A stretch of 64,000 nucleotides of DNA, taken from NCBI GenBank assembly GCA_019637265.1, contig JAHBVY010000004.1, forward strand, positions 1 through 64,000. Direction: 5' to 3'. Position 1 is the stretch's first letter. Each line of letters opens with the position of its first letter. Shown here piece by piece: positions 30,861 to 36,329 of this stretch. The position numbers were made by a program, and so were the translations under genes. The notes below the pieces were generated by a model, which did no database searches, had not been told where the DNA came from, and worked only from the letters and a program-made list of their open reading frames with translations. The DNA is from Polyangiaceae bacterium (GTDB taxonomy: Bacteria > Myxococcota_A > Polyangia > Polyangiales > Polyangiaceae).

Positions 30861-30890
30861 CTCACGCACCCCCTCTGCACAGTTTCGGTT

Positions 30891-30919
30891 CGGGGTTTTG
30901 GGTTGGACGGCACCGCACC
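30891..30919. repeat. Dispersed repeat, GCGGTGCCGTCCAACCCCC family, inverted copy
   Basis: Reads CGGGGTTTTGGGTTGGACGG then CACCGCACC; the reverse complement matches copies at 11751, 59806 and 61928. It ends 18 bases before the pseudogene start codon. Confidence 0.6.
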
Positions 30920-30946
30920 AAGGTATAACGCACGTGATGCGCCTCA
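30913..30946 (+). repeat. 34-base leader duplicate of the Sel1 lipoprotein gene
   Basis: Identical over 34 bases to 35205-35238 (CCGCACCAAGGTATAACGCA, then CGTGATGCGCCTCA), including the start codon. TATAAC in it resembles a -10 box but lies only about 12 bases before ATG. Confidence 0.8.
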
Positions 30947-31428
30947 CCGCCCCGCACGCCCCGCGCTCGCGCACACTGTCAGCAGCTACCCTGACCGTCA
31001 TCGCGCTCACGGCCCTCAGGCGCACCATCAGCCTCCCGCCCTATCCCAGCGCGTCCGCCAGCGCGCCCGAAGCCCCCCGCGACGAGCGCCGCTCCCCTCC
31101 AGGACTGCTCTCAGGACATCAAGGTGACCATCCACGGGGAGAGCGGCGAGTTCATCCGAAACTGGCTCACGGGCTCTGGCGTTGAGGACTATGTCGCGGC
31201 TGCGCGCCCGAAGCGAAGGCATGATCGCCGCATGCAGCGGGCTCAGCGGCCTGCGCGACGATGAGCGCTTCGGGCCGTGGGTGTATTAGGTCGCCCGCAG
31301 CGCTCTCGTCGATCACCTTCCCACAGGAACGCACCGACAAGTTCTGGGCGGTGGCGCTGACGTGTCAGAAGGAGCGTACGAACCACGGGCCGCGACTCGG
31401 CGAGATTGGCGTGCGCTGCAACAGCTAG
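30937..31428 (+). pseudogene. Frameshifted lipoprotein pseudogene (relative of the Sel1 lipoprotein leader)
   Basis: ATG 30937 opens a leader very like that of the gene at 35229 (RTLSAATLTVIALTAL against RALSAITLTVIMLAAL, then SASASAPE), but the lipobox Cys is lost. Later coding-like pieces lie in other frames: DCSQDIKVTIHGESGEFIRN (from about 31097), ACSGLSGLRDDERFGPWVY ending at a stop 31287-31289, and FPQERTDKFWAVALTC then GEIGVRCNS ending at 31426-31428. At least two frameshifts separate them. The body does not resemble the Sel1 repeats, so this was a different mature protein behind the same leader. Confidence 0.6.
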
Positions 31429-31441
31429 GTAATGATGGTGG

Positions 31442-32368
31442 CTATGTCGCTGCCGTCGCTGCCGCGTTTGCCGCCTCGGTCTCGCCCGTCACAGCCTTCT
31501 GCGAGTCCGTGGCGCCCTTCCTCTTCGTCTTTCGCTCTCCTTGGCCGATAACGAGGAGCAACTCCCAGGACGAAGGCATGCCGACACGGCGCTCTTCCTC
31601 GCGAAGCTGCGCGTCCGTCATGAGGGCGCGGGTGCAGTAGAGCACCGCGAGGAAGTTGGTCCAATCCTTCGACCCAGCGTAGCCCTTCGTATCCGCATAG
31701 ATCCCTTCGAGACACTTCTTCAGGTCGGTCTCCGTGTCGCAAAACTTGTACTCGATGGCAACCTGAAGATGCGGGATGCCGATGTCCGGCTTGTACGTCT
31801 TCGAGACCTGCGGGATGGGCGGATCTCGCACGGTGTCCGGGAACACATGAAGGAGCAATCCGTAGATCTCTCGACGGACATCCGCCTCACTTCTGGGGTC
31901 AAGACTGCGGTCGGCGATGAGCTTGGGCGTGCCGATGAGGATCTGCCGAAGAAGCTGGCGCTCTCGTTCTGCTTTTGGCTCCGTCCCCGGAACACCCCCA
32001 AGGCATGCTGCAAAACTCTCGTACGCCATCGAGAGCTCGCTCAGCACTGGCGAGAAGAAGACGTCGACATATGGAACGCTCTTGAGCGCAATCAATTCCT
32101 CGGCGTGAGCATCGAAGCGTTTCGTCATGCGGTCGAGCGCATTGGGGAGAGCGGCAAATTCGAGGGCGGTGGCCAGGCGTTCATGGATGCGCGTTAGGAC
32201 ATCGCGGAGTTCCATCTTGGCGAGCTCCTGCTCCTCATCGGGTTGCGCATCATCATCGAACTCCCGTGTCATCCACCAGTGCTCAAAATCAGAGATAAGC
32301 TTGTAGGCGCGGGACATGTCATCCTCGACACCCTTCCGAAACGCACTGGCCTCAAACTGCGATCGCAT
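31442..32368 (-). CDS. PD-(D/E)XK nuclease-like protein
   Basis: 308 residues. Residues 1-155 are mostly helical, without a recognised domain. Residues 160-250 carry EADVRREIYGLLLHVFPD, then KPDIGIPHLQVAIEYKF and KKCLEGIYADTKGY: Glu (about 161/167), Asp195, Glu206 and Lys208 give the E-D-ExK set of a PD-(D/E)XK fold, and WTNFLAVLYC is the next strand. This arrangement fits DNA nucleases often found in defence islands; I cannot name the family. The tail (about 280-308) is Ala/Thr-rich and disordered. ATG 32317 is an alternative start. Divergent from the HEPN operon across about 600 bases of remnant DNA. Confidence 0.72.
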   Translation of the reverse strand: MRSQFEASAFRKGVEDDMSRAYKLISDFEHWWMTREFDDDAQPDEEQELAKMELRDVLTRIHERLATALEFAALPNALDRMTKRFDAHAEELIALKSVPYVDVFFSPVLSELSMAYESFAACLGGVPGTEPKAERERQLLRQILIGTPKLIADRSLDPRSEADVRREIYGLLLHVFPDTVRDPPIPQVSKTYKPDIGIPHLQVAIEYKFCDTETDLKKCLEGIYADTKGYAGSKDWTNFLAVLYCTRALMTDAQLREEERRVGMPSSWELLLVIGQGERKTKRKGATDSQKAVTGETEAANAAATAAT

Positions 32369-32499
32369 GGCCCCTACATTGACCCTCTATCGAACGTATG
32401 TCAACGAGCAGTGCCTCCGCGCCCGGACCCTCCTCGGAGGCGCGGCGCGCGGTCCGTGCACGGTTCTTCCTCGTGGACCACCTCCCCGCAGGCAAGCCA

Positions 32500-32800
32500 A
32501 GCGCCTCGCCTCCGCGTTCTGCGAGGTCCAAATGCACCACACGCTCAAGCGCTTCGTCATTCCGGCTGGCAAGCCCGCTGGCACGCCGCCCAAGCCTAGG
32601 CCTGACGTCGTGCTCAATGCCGTGAGTGACGACGGGCCTCCTCGCCGCCGCGCACGAGGCGATCGCCAAACGCGGCCTGCGGGCGGCGGTGTCGTTTTCC
32701 CCACCGGCCTCGTGGCCTACGCCGAGGCTGCGACGCCGGACGCGATTTGTGCCACCCATCAGCAGCTCCAAACCCTTCTGAAGGGGTGGTCATCGGCGCG
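32500..32800 (+). pseudogene. Degraded gene fragment
   Basis: Coding-like peptides switch frame twice: TLKRFVIPAGKPAGTPPKPR and DVVLNAVSDDG, then LLAAAHEAIAKRGLRAAVSF in the next frame, then FPTGLVAYAEAATPDA and HQQLQTLLKG back in the first. The two shifts (near 32640 and 32698) compensate, so an altered but open frame exists. I treat it as a remnant; the original family is unknown. The rest of the gap 32369-32979 shows no supported gene. Confidence 0.4.
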
Positions 32801-32912
32801 CGTCCCGCAGGTGAGGACACGACGAGCGCCTTTGACGGTAACCACTACACCGACCTCGAGTGGTCCCTGCTGGTTCTTCCATCTATTGGCCCATGGATGG
32901 TGGTCGCTCAGG

Positions 32913-32918
32913 TATAAT
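32913..32918 (+). promoter_or_regulatory. Possible -10 box (TATAAT) of the HEPN operon
   Basis: A perfect TATAAT, rare in this GC-rich window, 61 bases before the first gene of the operon. TTGGCC at 32887-32892 is a weak -35 candidate with a long 20-base spacer. Confidence 0.35.
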
Positions 32919-32979
32919 AGCGCCATCACCCAAGGACCACCGTACGAACCTCAGGCCTTAGGCGCCGACGGGAGGCACG

Positions 32980-33336
32980 ATGCAGATAGCACAGGCACAA
33001 GAACAAGCGGCTACGTCTGACCTACTCGAAAGCGTCGCGCTACCGGCAATCGTCGAGTTGGTTGGCTTGCTTGCCGAATCGTGGTCCGGAAGCAAAGCAG
33101 CCGAGCGACGCGCGAAGCGACGCGAGGAAGTGCGTGCGCTCGTCGAGGCCTCGACGAGGAAGCTCCCAGACCGTGCGTGGAGCCTCTGGCAAGCCGACGG
33201 GCTCCCGAGCGTATCGGAAGCTGCGCAGACGCAAGGGAGCGCAACCACAGTGGCCGCACCATTGCGCGTCGAGGGAGGGTCAATCACGGGGGCGGTGAAC
33301 CGCATTGAGAAGCCACTGACGGGCCTCCAGCCGTGA
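32980..33336 (+). CDS. Small protein, first gene of the HEPN operon
   Basis: 118 residues; a GGGAGG ribosome site precedes ATG 32980. Residues 10-60 are helical (LLESVALPAIVELVGLLAES, then a basic AAERRAKRREEVRALVEAS), and the second half is Gly/Thr/Val-rich. No family recognised. Its stop overlaps the GTG start of the HEPN-like gene (GTGA), a sign of coupled translation. It could be a regulator, partner or antitoxin of the downstream protein, by inference from context only. Confidence 0.6.
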   Translation: MQIAQAQEQAATSDLLESVALPAIVELVGLLAESWSGSKAAERRAKRREEVRALVEASTRKLPDRAWSLWQADGLPSVSEAAQTQGSATTVAAPLRVEGGSITGAVNRIEKPLTGLQP

Positions 33337-34496
33337 GCGACATAGTACGCCAGTGGCGATGCCAGCTCGACATCCCTTCGGTGACGCCGCCGGAAACCGT
33401 TAGCGTTGATGCCCAACTCGTCGTGTACGTCACAGGCCGCGCAGATCTGACCTTCAGCTACAGGGGCGACCTTCAGATTGCTGATGGCGCGACCGCCGTG
33501 GGGACAACGTCTGGCTTCGATGTGGTCCTTGAGAATTTAGGCATCGAACGCGTGAATCGGACCATCAACGTCCACACCGGTTTTACCACGACAGTCGTTG
33601 CTACGTTTATGGCCGGGCAACTAACGAGAACGACCCCGCCCGCAGGTATGCCGTTTAAGGAGGTCGTTCACCTCAAGGCCGCGCGAGTTCGTGGCACGGT
33701 GCAGGTGGGATCGGACTTGACGATTACCTCGCGTTCGTTGAACGGCGATCGCCGTGGATATCTGCTCTCGGCGACGGCTGAGTTGAGCGCGAACGTCACG
33801 CTACCCGATCTGATTCTGCTGCTGACGCTTGCCCAGCGGTGTCCGATCTTCGCACCACTTCGCGAACGCCACGATGCTACGGGCATCGTTTCTGTGGAGA
33901 TCGCTCCTAACGAGTCCACCTTTACAGCCACAATGCCCCTGATCCCATACTGCGGGACCGACCTTGCGATCTTTCTGAAGACAGGACTCCCGAAGGTAAG
34001 CTCGCTCAACCGAGACTACGAGTTAGCCAGGCTATGTAACTACTACGCGCTCTCCGTGCAGCGCCAATACGCGGAGGAGATGTTCATGCTAGCGAGCGTG
34101 GTGATGGAGGCGTTCAAGTTCCACTGGGCCAAGAACGTCGGCAAGCTCACCCCAGACCTGAAAGCTAATGGGCTCGTGCGCGGGTTCGTAAAGGGCACTG
34201 CCCAGAATGGGCGTAAGATCCACTTCACGTTCGAGGAACTTCTCAAGCAGGCGACCACCGCCTTGGGTCTGAACCAGACGCACACGTTCATCGAGGACCG
34301 TAATGCGCTGTTCCACACCGGCGCCCCCGGCGCAGCACAGACGTTGCCGGGCAGCGGAATTTGGCTGGCGATCGAGCCCGAACTCGTCACCCTCTACAGG
34401 CAGATCGACGACATCCTTCTCACGCTTATCGGGTACACCGGCCCGATCCACCGCTGGGACGACATCAATAACTCCGTCCTGTTTCCGCCGAGGTAG
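33333..34496 (+). CDS. HEPN-like protein with a beta-rich N-terminal domain
   Basis: 387 residues starting with GTG 33333 (reads MSDIVRQW). Residues 1-215 are mostly beta-strand (SVDAQLVVYVTGRADLTFSY, AARVRGTVQVGSDLTITSRS); residues 225-385 are helical, with AEEMFMLASVVMEAFKF and FIEDRNALFHTG. The Arg323 and His328 pair (Rx4H, in the form RN...FHTG) is the HEPN ribonuclease signature. Such two-part proteins recall ApeA-type defence proteins, where the HEPN domain cleaves RNA upon infection. Its lower GC and accessory setting agree. No toxin-antitoxin partner other than the 118-residue gene is nearby. Confidence 0.65.
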   Translation: MSDIVRQWRCQLDIPSVTPPETVSVDAQLVVYVTGRADLTFSYRGDLQIADGATAVGTTSGFDVVLENLGIERVNRTINVHTGFTTTVVATFMAGQLTRTTPPAGMPFKEVVHLKAARVRGTVQVGSDLTITSRSLNGDRRGYLLSATAELSANVTLPDLILLLTLAQRCPIFAPLRERHDATGIVSVEIAPNESTFTATMPLIPYCGTDLAIFLKTGLPKVSSLNRDYELARLCNYYALSVQRQYAEEMFMLASVVMEAFKFHWAKNVGKLTPDLKANGLVRGFVKGTAQNGRKIHFTFEELLKQATTALGLNQTHTFIEDRNALFHTGAPGAAQTLPGSGIWLAIEPELVTLYRQIDDILLTLIGYTGPIHRWDDINNSVLFPPR

Positions 34497-34602
34497 GTCG
34501 TGCCGAACTAGCGCCGCAGGTGATCGGCGGGACGGGGCGCTATCCCCTGAGCGCCACGAGATCTCACAGGCGGTGAGGAGCGGAAGCTCCCGGCGCTCCA
34601 GC

Positions 34603-35215
34603 GCTCGTGAGGGTCTCTCTGCTGGCAAGAGCACGGCGGCTCGGGCCCGCTCGATCTACCGACCACCGATCGCGACTGGCTCATCAAGCGCATCGACACC
34701 GGGTCCGATGGCATCGACCGCGCGACCGCGCGTGTGGGTGGACGGTGTCCTGGCCTTCGAGGGCGGCGCGCCACGGAGATCGCTCCGGCCCACGCGGGCC
34801 CGCTCGCGGCCGTCGCGCAGTCCGCCGACACGCTGCGCGTCGTGCTGCACCCGGTGGTCCCGCTCGCGAGCCTTGCCACGGTCCACGTGCGCGTGCTGGC
34901 GCAGACCGTTGGCGACGCCGCGGCGCTTGACAAGGTCTACTCGTTCGTCCACGAGGATCGCACCGCACCCTGCGTCATCGGCGCACAGACGCTCACGCAA
35001 AGGACGGTGCGCCTGGCCTTTGATAAGCCGGTGCTCCTGTCCAGCGGGGCGACGTTCTTCCTCACGCCCAAGGGGGCGCCCGCCGTCGCCACAGGTTGGA
35101 GCGGTGCTCGTCCAGATGTACCGACAGAAGGGAACCGCGAAAGGCCTCAGAACGCGATCTTGGCCTTCACGCCGTTCAACGCCGACACACTCATCCTCGG
35201 CGAGCCGCACCAAGG
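34603..35215 (+). pseudogene. Decayed gene fragment with Ig-like strand patterns
   Basis: The frame reads PLDLPTTDRDWLIKRIDTGS, then (after a switch to the next frame) VWVDGVLAFEGGAP, then back to TEIAPAHAGPLAAVAQ, TLRVVLHPVVPLAS, TVRLAFDKPVLLSSG and TPKGAPAVATG. The strand wording is like bacterial Ig-like or phage structural domains. No start codon and two compensating shifts point to a remnant. It runs in frame straight into the start of the Sel1 gene. The remaining part of the gap from 34497 to 34602 is featureless. Confidence 0.4.
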
Positions 35216-35238
35216 TATAACGCACGTGATGCGCCTCA
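35205..35238 (+). repeat. 34-base leader duplicate, second copy
   Basis: Same 34 bases as 30913-30946 and includes the start codon of the intact Sel1 lipoprotein gene. Confidence 0.8.
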
Positions 35239-36329
35239 TGTATGGGCGACCAGCCGGTCGCCCCCACCCATCGCCCCCACGCGCCCTCTCTACGGCGCCG
35301 CGCGCGCTGTCAGCAATCACCCTGACCGTCATCATGCTCGCGGCCCTCAGCCTCACCGGCTGCGACCAGAGCCCACCGTCAGCCTCTCGCTCTACTCCCA
35401 GCGCCTCCGCCAGCGCGCCCGAAACCCCCGCGGCGAGCGCTCCCCTCAGCTTGCCGCCGCTCCCCAGCGCCGCCCCAGAGCCCAGCCCACCTCCCGGCGA
35501 CGCGATGACGCTCGAAGCCACCTGCGCCCTCACGGCGGCGCTGCCGCCAGAAGCCGAGCGCGCGAGCCGCGGCGCCGCCTGCGCCCAGCTCGCCGTCCTC
35601 TACTCCACCGGGGAGGCCGGCGAGGTGAACCACGAGAAGGCCTACCGACTGCGCGACCACGCTTGCCGGCTGGGCAACAGCGGCGCCTGCGTGCTGGCGG
35701 GCGCAGCGCTCGCGAGCGGCGACGGCACCGGAAGGGCCGCTGACCAAGCCGCCGCCTACGCCATCTACACCAAGGCCTGCGAGGCCAAGCAAGCGGAGGG
35801 CTGCCTCCGTGTCGGCGCCGCGCACCACCGCGGCGAGGGCGCCGAGAAGAGCCCCGCCGCCGCGCTCCGCGCCTTCTTGAAGGCCTGTGAGCTCGGCAAC
35901 GCCGCCGGGTGTTTCAACGCAGGAACCATGGAAGAGGCCGGCGAAGGCATCGAAGCCGCGAGCGGCGACGCCGCGCCCAGCGAAGCCGGCGCACCCAAGA
36001 GCACGAGCGACGCCGCGCGCTACGCCAAGGCCACCCTGCACTACGGCATGGCCTGCTCCGGCGGCTTCCCCAGCGCCTGCTACAACCTGGCGCTCGTGTA
36101 CGACCGCGGCGTCATCACCCAGGAGCGCCCCGAGTGGGCCGCCGAGCTCTACCGCCGCGGCTGCGACGCCCACCACCCAGGCGCCTGCGGCGGCCTCGGC
36201 GGGCTGCTCTACACCGGCCGTGGCATCGCCCAAGACACCACCCGCGGCCACGAGCTGATGCAAGACTCCTGCGCCAAGGGCTCCGACTGGGGCTGCCGCC
36301 TGATCCGCAAGCACGTAGGCAACAAGTAG
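35229..36329 (+). CDS. Sel1-repeat lipoprotein
   Basis: 366 residues from ATG 35229. A leader with hydrophobic LTVIMLAALSLTGC (lipobox) is followed by a Ser/Pro/Ala spacer to about 85. From there TPR-like Sel1 units recur, marked by Cys: HACRLGNSGACVLAGAAL, KACEAKQAEGCLRVGAAH, KACELGNAAGCFNAGTM, MACSGGFPSACYNLALVY, RGCDAHHPGACGGLGGLLY and DSCAKGSDWGCR. The paired Cys in each unit are typical of secreted Sel1 proteins with disulphides. Members usually act as scaffolds or regulators of envelope processes. Start and leader are shared with a pseudogene at 30937. Confidence 0.88.
   Translation: MRLMYGRPAGRPHPSPPRALSTAPRALSAITLTVIMLAALSLTGCDQSPPSASRSTPSASASAPETPAASAPLSLPPLPSAAPEPSPPPGDAMTLEATCALTAALPPEAERASRGAACAQLAVLYSTGEAGEVNHEKAYRLRDHACRLGNSGACVLAGAALASGDGTGRAADQAAAYAIYTKACEAKQAEGCLRVGAAHHRGEGAEKSPAAALRAFLKACELGNAAGCFNAGTMEEAGEGIEAASGDAAPSEAGAPKSTSDAARYAKATLHYGMACSGGFPSACYNLALVYDRGVITQERPEWAAELYRRGCDAHHPGACGGLGGLLYTGRGIAQDTTRGHELMQDSCAKGSDWGCRLIRKHVGNK

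Follow-up and report, generated by a model that had tools for sequence, protein, structure and literature searches.

A low-GC accessory island in a Polyangiaceae genome carries a PD-(D/E)XK nuclease gene and an ORFan gene pair with a HEPN-like motif

The window analyzed here is a stretch of 64,000 nucleotides of contig JAHBVY010000004.1 from a Polyangiaceae bacterium (assembly GCA_019637265.1). The initial annotation had described three open reading frames in it, a nuclease gene divergent from two overlapping genes encoding proteins of 118 and 387 residues, and all three were confirmed in this arrangement and position (Table 1). The two genes of the pair share 4 nt, GTGA. A 4-nt overlap of the GTGA type is a classic arrangement for translational coupling.

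Table 1. Features of the island and its edges, in positions of the window
Feature	Positions	Strand	Basis
308-aa nuclease gene	31442-32368	minus	ORF list
118-aa gene, first of operon	32980-33336	plus	ORF list
387-aa gene, second of operon, GTG start	33333-34496	plus	ORF list
Decayed phage tail gene (Tail_P2_I-like, with Ig-like domain)	34683-35204	plus	62% identity to intact L084:6014-7348
Left copy of repeated promoter/signal-peptide region, start of decayed lipoprotein paralogue	30913-31077	plus	repeat with 35205-35429
Right copy of repeated region and Sel1-repeat lipoprotein gene, right island edge	35205-36329	plus	Sel1 PF08238, E=3.1e-10

The GC content drops from about 0.70 outside to 0.58-0.65 across positions 31500-34500, which bears out the lower-GC island that had been proposed. 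GC at the third codon position was 0.73-0.74 in the 308-aa and 387-aa genes against about 0.88 in host genes, and the GC at the codon positions of these two genes was coding-like, yet unlike that of host genes. The nuclease gene and the operon are separated by about 600 bp of apparently non-coding DNA. This gap (32369-32979) resembles the remains of a frameshifted gene, seen around MHHTLKRFVIPAGKPAGTPPKPRPDVVLNAVSDDG; the phage tail loci gave no match to the gap, and we found no identity for it.

Pseudogenes had been claimed on both flanks of the island, and the comparison of the edges agreed with this: the right one is a decayed phage tail gene and the left one a decayed lipoprotein paralogue. 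The right-edge gene carries frameshifts and an internal deletion of about 0.4 kb relative to the intact gene at L084:6014-7348. The gene is intact in relatives from the same taxonomic order, where it lies in contractile-tail clusters and adjoins Baseplate_J and GPD genes, and the intact L084 protein matched Big_5 (Ig-like) and Tail_P2_I weakly, below the curated cut-offs. In the relative G206, an Endonuclease_7/HNH gene lies downstream of the intact tail gene on the opposite strand (L086:8169-8678).

The left edge begins with a copy of the promoter and signal-peptide region of the Sel1 lipoprotein gene, with 34 identical nucleotides followed by pieces of 83-94% identity. The 34-nt repeat was considered as a phage att site and rejected. 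Because the similarity continues through the lipoprotein signal region, the repeat looks like the product of paralogous genes. Two other repeats were observed at these edges. An element of roughly GGGGTTTTGGGGTTGGACGGCACCGCACC occurs genome-wide on both strands (30884-30922, G000:C2:70713, C2:32131, C16:192007, C16:421554, C16:325846 and C17:198595), and the left copy of the island repeat starts where this element ends. The palindromic repeat GGGCGACC(A/G)GCCGGTCGCCCC was found at 35232-35270, G000:C1:435633, C16:237028 and C7:6725; it is present in the right lipoprotein copy and missing from the left copy.

The decayed tail gene was the one phage gene remnant found in the island, and the left and middle non-coding stretches had no match in the tail loci. 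G001, a genome of the same genus, retains the radical-SAM and metallophosphatase neighbors on the left and has a Sel1 region on another contig; contig ends break the comparison before an empty site could be seen. The island genes were absent from the related genomes searched. These observations support an accessory island flanked by pseudogenes, probably left behind by a decayed prophage or phage-tail-bearing element. The simplest history would be that a phage-derived element came to lie between two lipoprotein paralogues and decayed except for its cargo; the cargo may have arrived with the phage.

The product of the 308-aa gene had been described as an E-D-ExK nuclease of the PD-(D/E)XK type, and this proved correct. 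Residues 158-249 match Pfam PF18742 (REase_DpnII-MboI) with an E-value of 2.3e-8 and a score of 34.2 bits, above the curated cut-off of 27, and the same profile was matched by six of six aligned family members (E<=0.01). The catalytic residues E161...D195...E206-x-K208 are conserved: E161, E206, and K208 are invariant in the six-member alignment, while one member has E in place of D195 (numbers count from the start Met; the alignment output gives E160, E205, and K207). Judged by the profile match and these residues, the gene encodes a genuine PD-(D/E)XK nuclease of the REase_DpnII-MboI type. The N-terminal part of the protein lies outside the PF18742 match.

Relatives of the nuclease were found by tblastn in 12 plasmid records at 24-37% identity. 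They occur on proteobacterial plasmids and on two prophage-like IMG/VR contigs, both of which also encode phage tail or baseplate-like ORFs. The Methylocystis relative adjoins a PaeR7I-type restriction-modification set and an AAA ATPase, the Klebsiella relative adjoins TerD-type stress genes, and the Agrobacterium relative has Shedu and AbiE genes nearby. The Agrobacterium plasmid locus (L031:1763-9968) was itself observed to be a dense defense-like cluster, in which Shedu, an AbiE pair, RES-domain, and restriction endonuclease genes surround the nuclease relative. No further copy was found among 379 genomes of the phylum of the host; in another phylum, 289 genomes searched with the nuclease profile yielded a single partial match. 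By these comparisons the 308-aa gene is a rare, mobile, and defense-like solo nuclease gene whose product is most likely a DNA endonuclease that attacks invading DNA.

Two known classes were compared with the nuclease. The PADLOC models named Aga_Helical-REase matched the catalytic core of the 308-aa protein partially, with E, D, and E-x-K conserved, but the match spans only about 85 residues of models of 370-400 positions. We take 'Aga' in this name to mean Argonaute-associated. A short Argonaute-associated REase would be recognized by a full-length profile match beside an Argonaute gene; no Pfam match to Argonaute was found among the island and adjacent ORFs scanned, and the 308-aa nuclease is not assigned to that class. 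The island also has no methylase gene, so the nuclease is not a DpnII/MboI restriction-modification system.

The 118-aa frame had the top score of the six frames but was weakly coding. A GGGAGG Shine-Dalgarno sequence precedes it, and a TATAAT box can be read about 62 nt upstream; the promoter and terminator scan gave no full sigma-70 site and nothing above chance. The ORF is probably, though not certainly, a gene. Its product had no match in four profile libraries, including antitoxin families such as MNT, and no plasmid relative. Weak matches in 229 genomes of the phylum fell in shadow frames or in frames interrupted by stops, none adjoined a similar gene, and all were rejected. The GTGA overlap is what suggests a partnership between the 118-aa and 387-aa proteins. 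Co-occurrence of the two gives no signal either way because neither gene has a detectable relative.

The 387-aa protein had no match in four profile libraries, PADLOC among them, or in PDB sequences. Searches of 58 related genomes, one of them of the same genus, of 379 genomes of the same phylum, of 398 genomes of another phylum, and of plasmids and phages gave no relative. A comparison of exact short peptides with an 84,980-species collection and IMG/VR, a scan that can show the absence of close relatives only, found close relatives missing. Weak matches in four genomes (G097, G356, G445, and G754) were rejected: those at L002, L003, and L074 fall in frames opposite real genes, and L075 is a membrane-transport-like ORF. 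Scans for RN-x-L-F-H-T-G in IMG/VR, and for the same pattern preceded by D/E in 84,980 genomes, returned chance frames only. As far as these searches reach, the 118/387-aa operon is an ORFan.

The initial annotation had read the C-terminal part of the 387-aa protein as HEPN-type. The motif on which this reading was based, R323-N-A-L-F-H328-TG, is present. Single-sequence AlphaFold modeling reached a pLDDT of 31 with the full-length protein and 37 with its C-terminal part, values that do not support statements about the fold. In these low-confidence models the protein is beta-rich at about residues 1-217 and helical at about 224-366, in agreement with the initial description, and one helix ends with R323-N324-x3-H328 and is followed by another. 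In HEPN domains, helix 3 ends with the Rx4-6H motif, whose Arg is followed by a polar residue, mostly N, D, or H (PMC3710099); R323-N-A-L-F-H328 has both the polar residue and, in the low-confidence model, the helix end. The motif and the helix pattern make the HEPN reading plausible but unproven; no HEPN profile matched, the fold models were not usable, and Foldseek with the low-confidence C-terminal model gave no significant match. A conserved acidic residue upstream of the motif, often within Ex3[KR], is a further mark of HEPN domains, and the sole C-terminal match to that pattern, E301-E-L-L-K305, is of a kind that chance produces in 62% of shuffles. HEPN domains are poorly conserved outside the motif (PMC3710099), and therefore it is quite possible that profiles missed one here. 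We consider that the 387-aa protein is rather probably a HEPN protein.

A less probable but substantial alternative is that the protein is not HEPN but an unrelated two-domain ORFan, for example a structural or accessory protein of a phage or element, in which RNALFH is coincidental. The lack of any profile match would fit this, as would the decayed tail gene adjoining the 387-aa gene and the frequency of the motif in shuffled sequences. RN-x3-H occurred in about 1.5-1.8% of shuffles of the whole protein or its C-terminal part, and RN-x3-H-[TSG]-G in 0.02-0.04%, percentages to be read with the fact that the motif was picked once the sequence had been seen and the suffix chosen afterwards. The generic Rx4-6H was present in most shuffles. 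However, the motif lies at a predicted helix end with another helix after it and in the C-terminal part, where HEPN effectors typically have it (PMC3710099), and phage families had no match to the protein.

Assuming the HEPN reading, the operon was compared with two known HEPN defenses. Tha is a prophage-encoded HEPN defense of Staphylococcus aureus phages; its HEPN domain is C-terminal and contains R265NSIMH270, and the substitution H270A abolishes protection (PMC11087260). It resembles the 387-aa protein in having an N-terminal part of no recognized family followed by a C-terminal R-N-x3-H; the likeness is one of layout and motif rather than of compared sequences, and Tha has 301 residues against 387 here. 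Tha, which is carried by phages, is controlled by a small separate protein, Ith, and this recalls the pairing with a small gene here; a role of the 118-aa protein as an inhibitor would be conjectural. ApeA consists of a beta-rich ApeA-NTD1 and HEPN (PMC3710099, PMC10952713) and thus has the layout predicted for the 387-aa protein, a beta-rich N-terminal part ahead of a helical C-terminal part with Rx4H, but the 387-aa gene has neither a HEPN_Apea nor a PADLOC match. When the genome was searched with HEPN_Apea (PF18739) to E=10, the only match, of 12.4 bits, lay elsewhere and the 387-aa gene was untouched, so a relationship to ApeA, which had been suggested, was not upheld. The operon may have an anti-phage function.

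The pair might instead be a toxin-antitoxin module, a HEPN toxin with a small antitoxin, serving its own maintenance without phage defense. A small upstream gene does overlap a putative RNase gene here, and HEPN toxins with small partner genes are known (PMC4621449, PMC3710099). We regard such a module as unlikely: MNT and other antitoxin families have no match in the 118-aa protein, and the large beta-rich N-terminus of the 387-aa protein fits a sensor-effector protein better.

That the nuclease and the pair form one divergent defense system, with nuclease and HEPN acting together, is suggested by their adjacency and shared low GC but is very improbable, because the nuclease relatives examined are each solo genes never seen beside operon relatives, the five whole plasmid and two IMG/VR records that hold nuclease relatives contain no match to the 387-aa protein, and the apparently non-coding gap separates the two units.

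We favor the reading that the locus, a small accessory island, is what remains of a decayed prophage or mobile element and contains two independent cargo units, and we give this reading a probability of about 0.5. The first unit would be the nuclease, whose DpnII/MboI-type catalytic core would cut invading DNA and whose N-terminal part may sense or dimerize. The second would be the 118-aa/387-aa pair, presumably translationally coupled. In it, the beta-rich N-terminus of the 387-aa protein may recognize a trigger related to phage, and the HEPN-type domain at the C-terminus would dimerize and cut RNA using R323 and H328, leading to abortive infection, with the 118-aa protein controlling or assisting. 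The fuller proposal, that the operon is a new and very rare two-gene abortive-infection family, carried as cargo of a decayed prophage and made up of a HEPN RNase with a beta-rich phage sensor and a small regulator, sensor and regulator both being novel, is speculative and somewhat unlikely.

To call the island a demonstrated new system would go beyond the evidence; it looks like a leftover prophage or defense cargo. The nuclease is of a recognizable type that is already known, and to see in the operon an undescribed form of HEPN-based defense would be a claim stronger than the present evidence. The nuclease extends a little-described solo PD-(D/E)XK family of proteobacterial plasmids and prophages and is a tractable defense candidate in its own right. 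Were the HEPN reading right, the operon would add a divergent RNase effector, one with a sensor domain not seen before and beyond the reach of present defense-finding profiles, and would indicate that such cargo can outlive its prophage.
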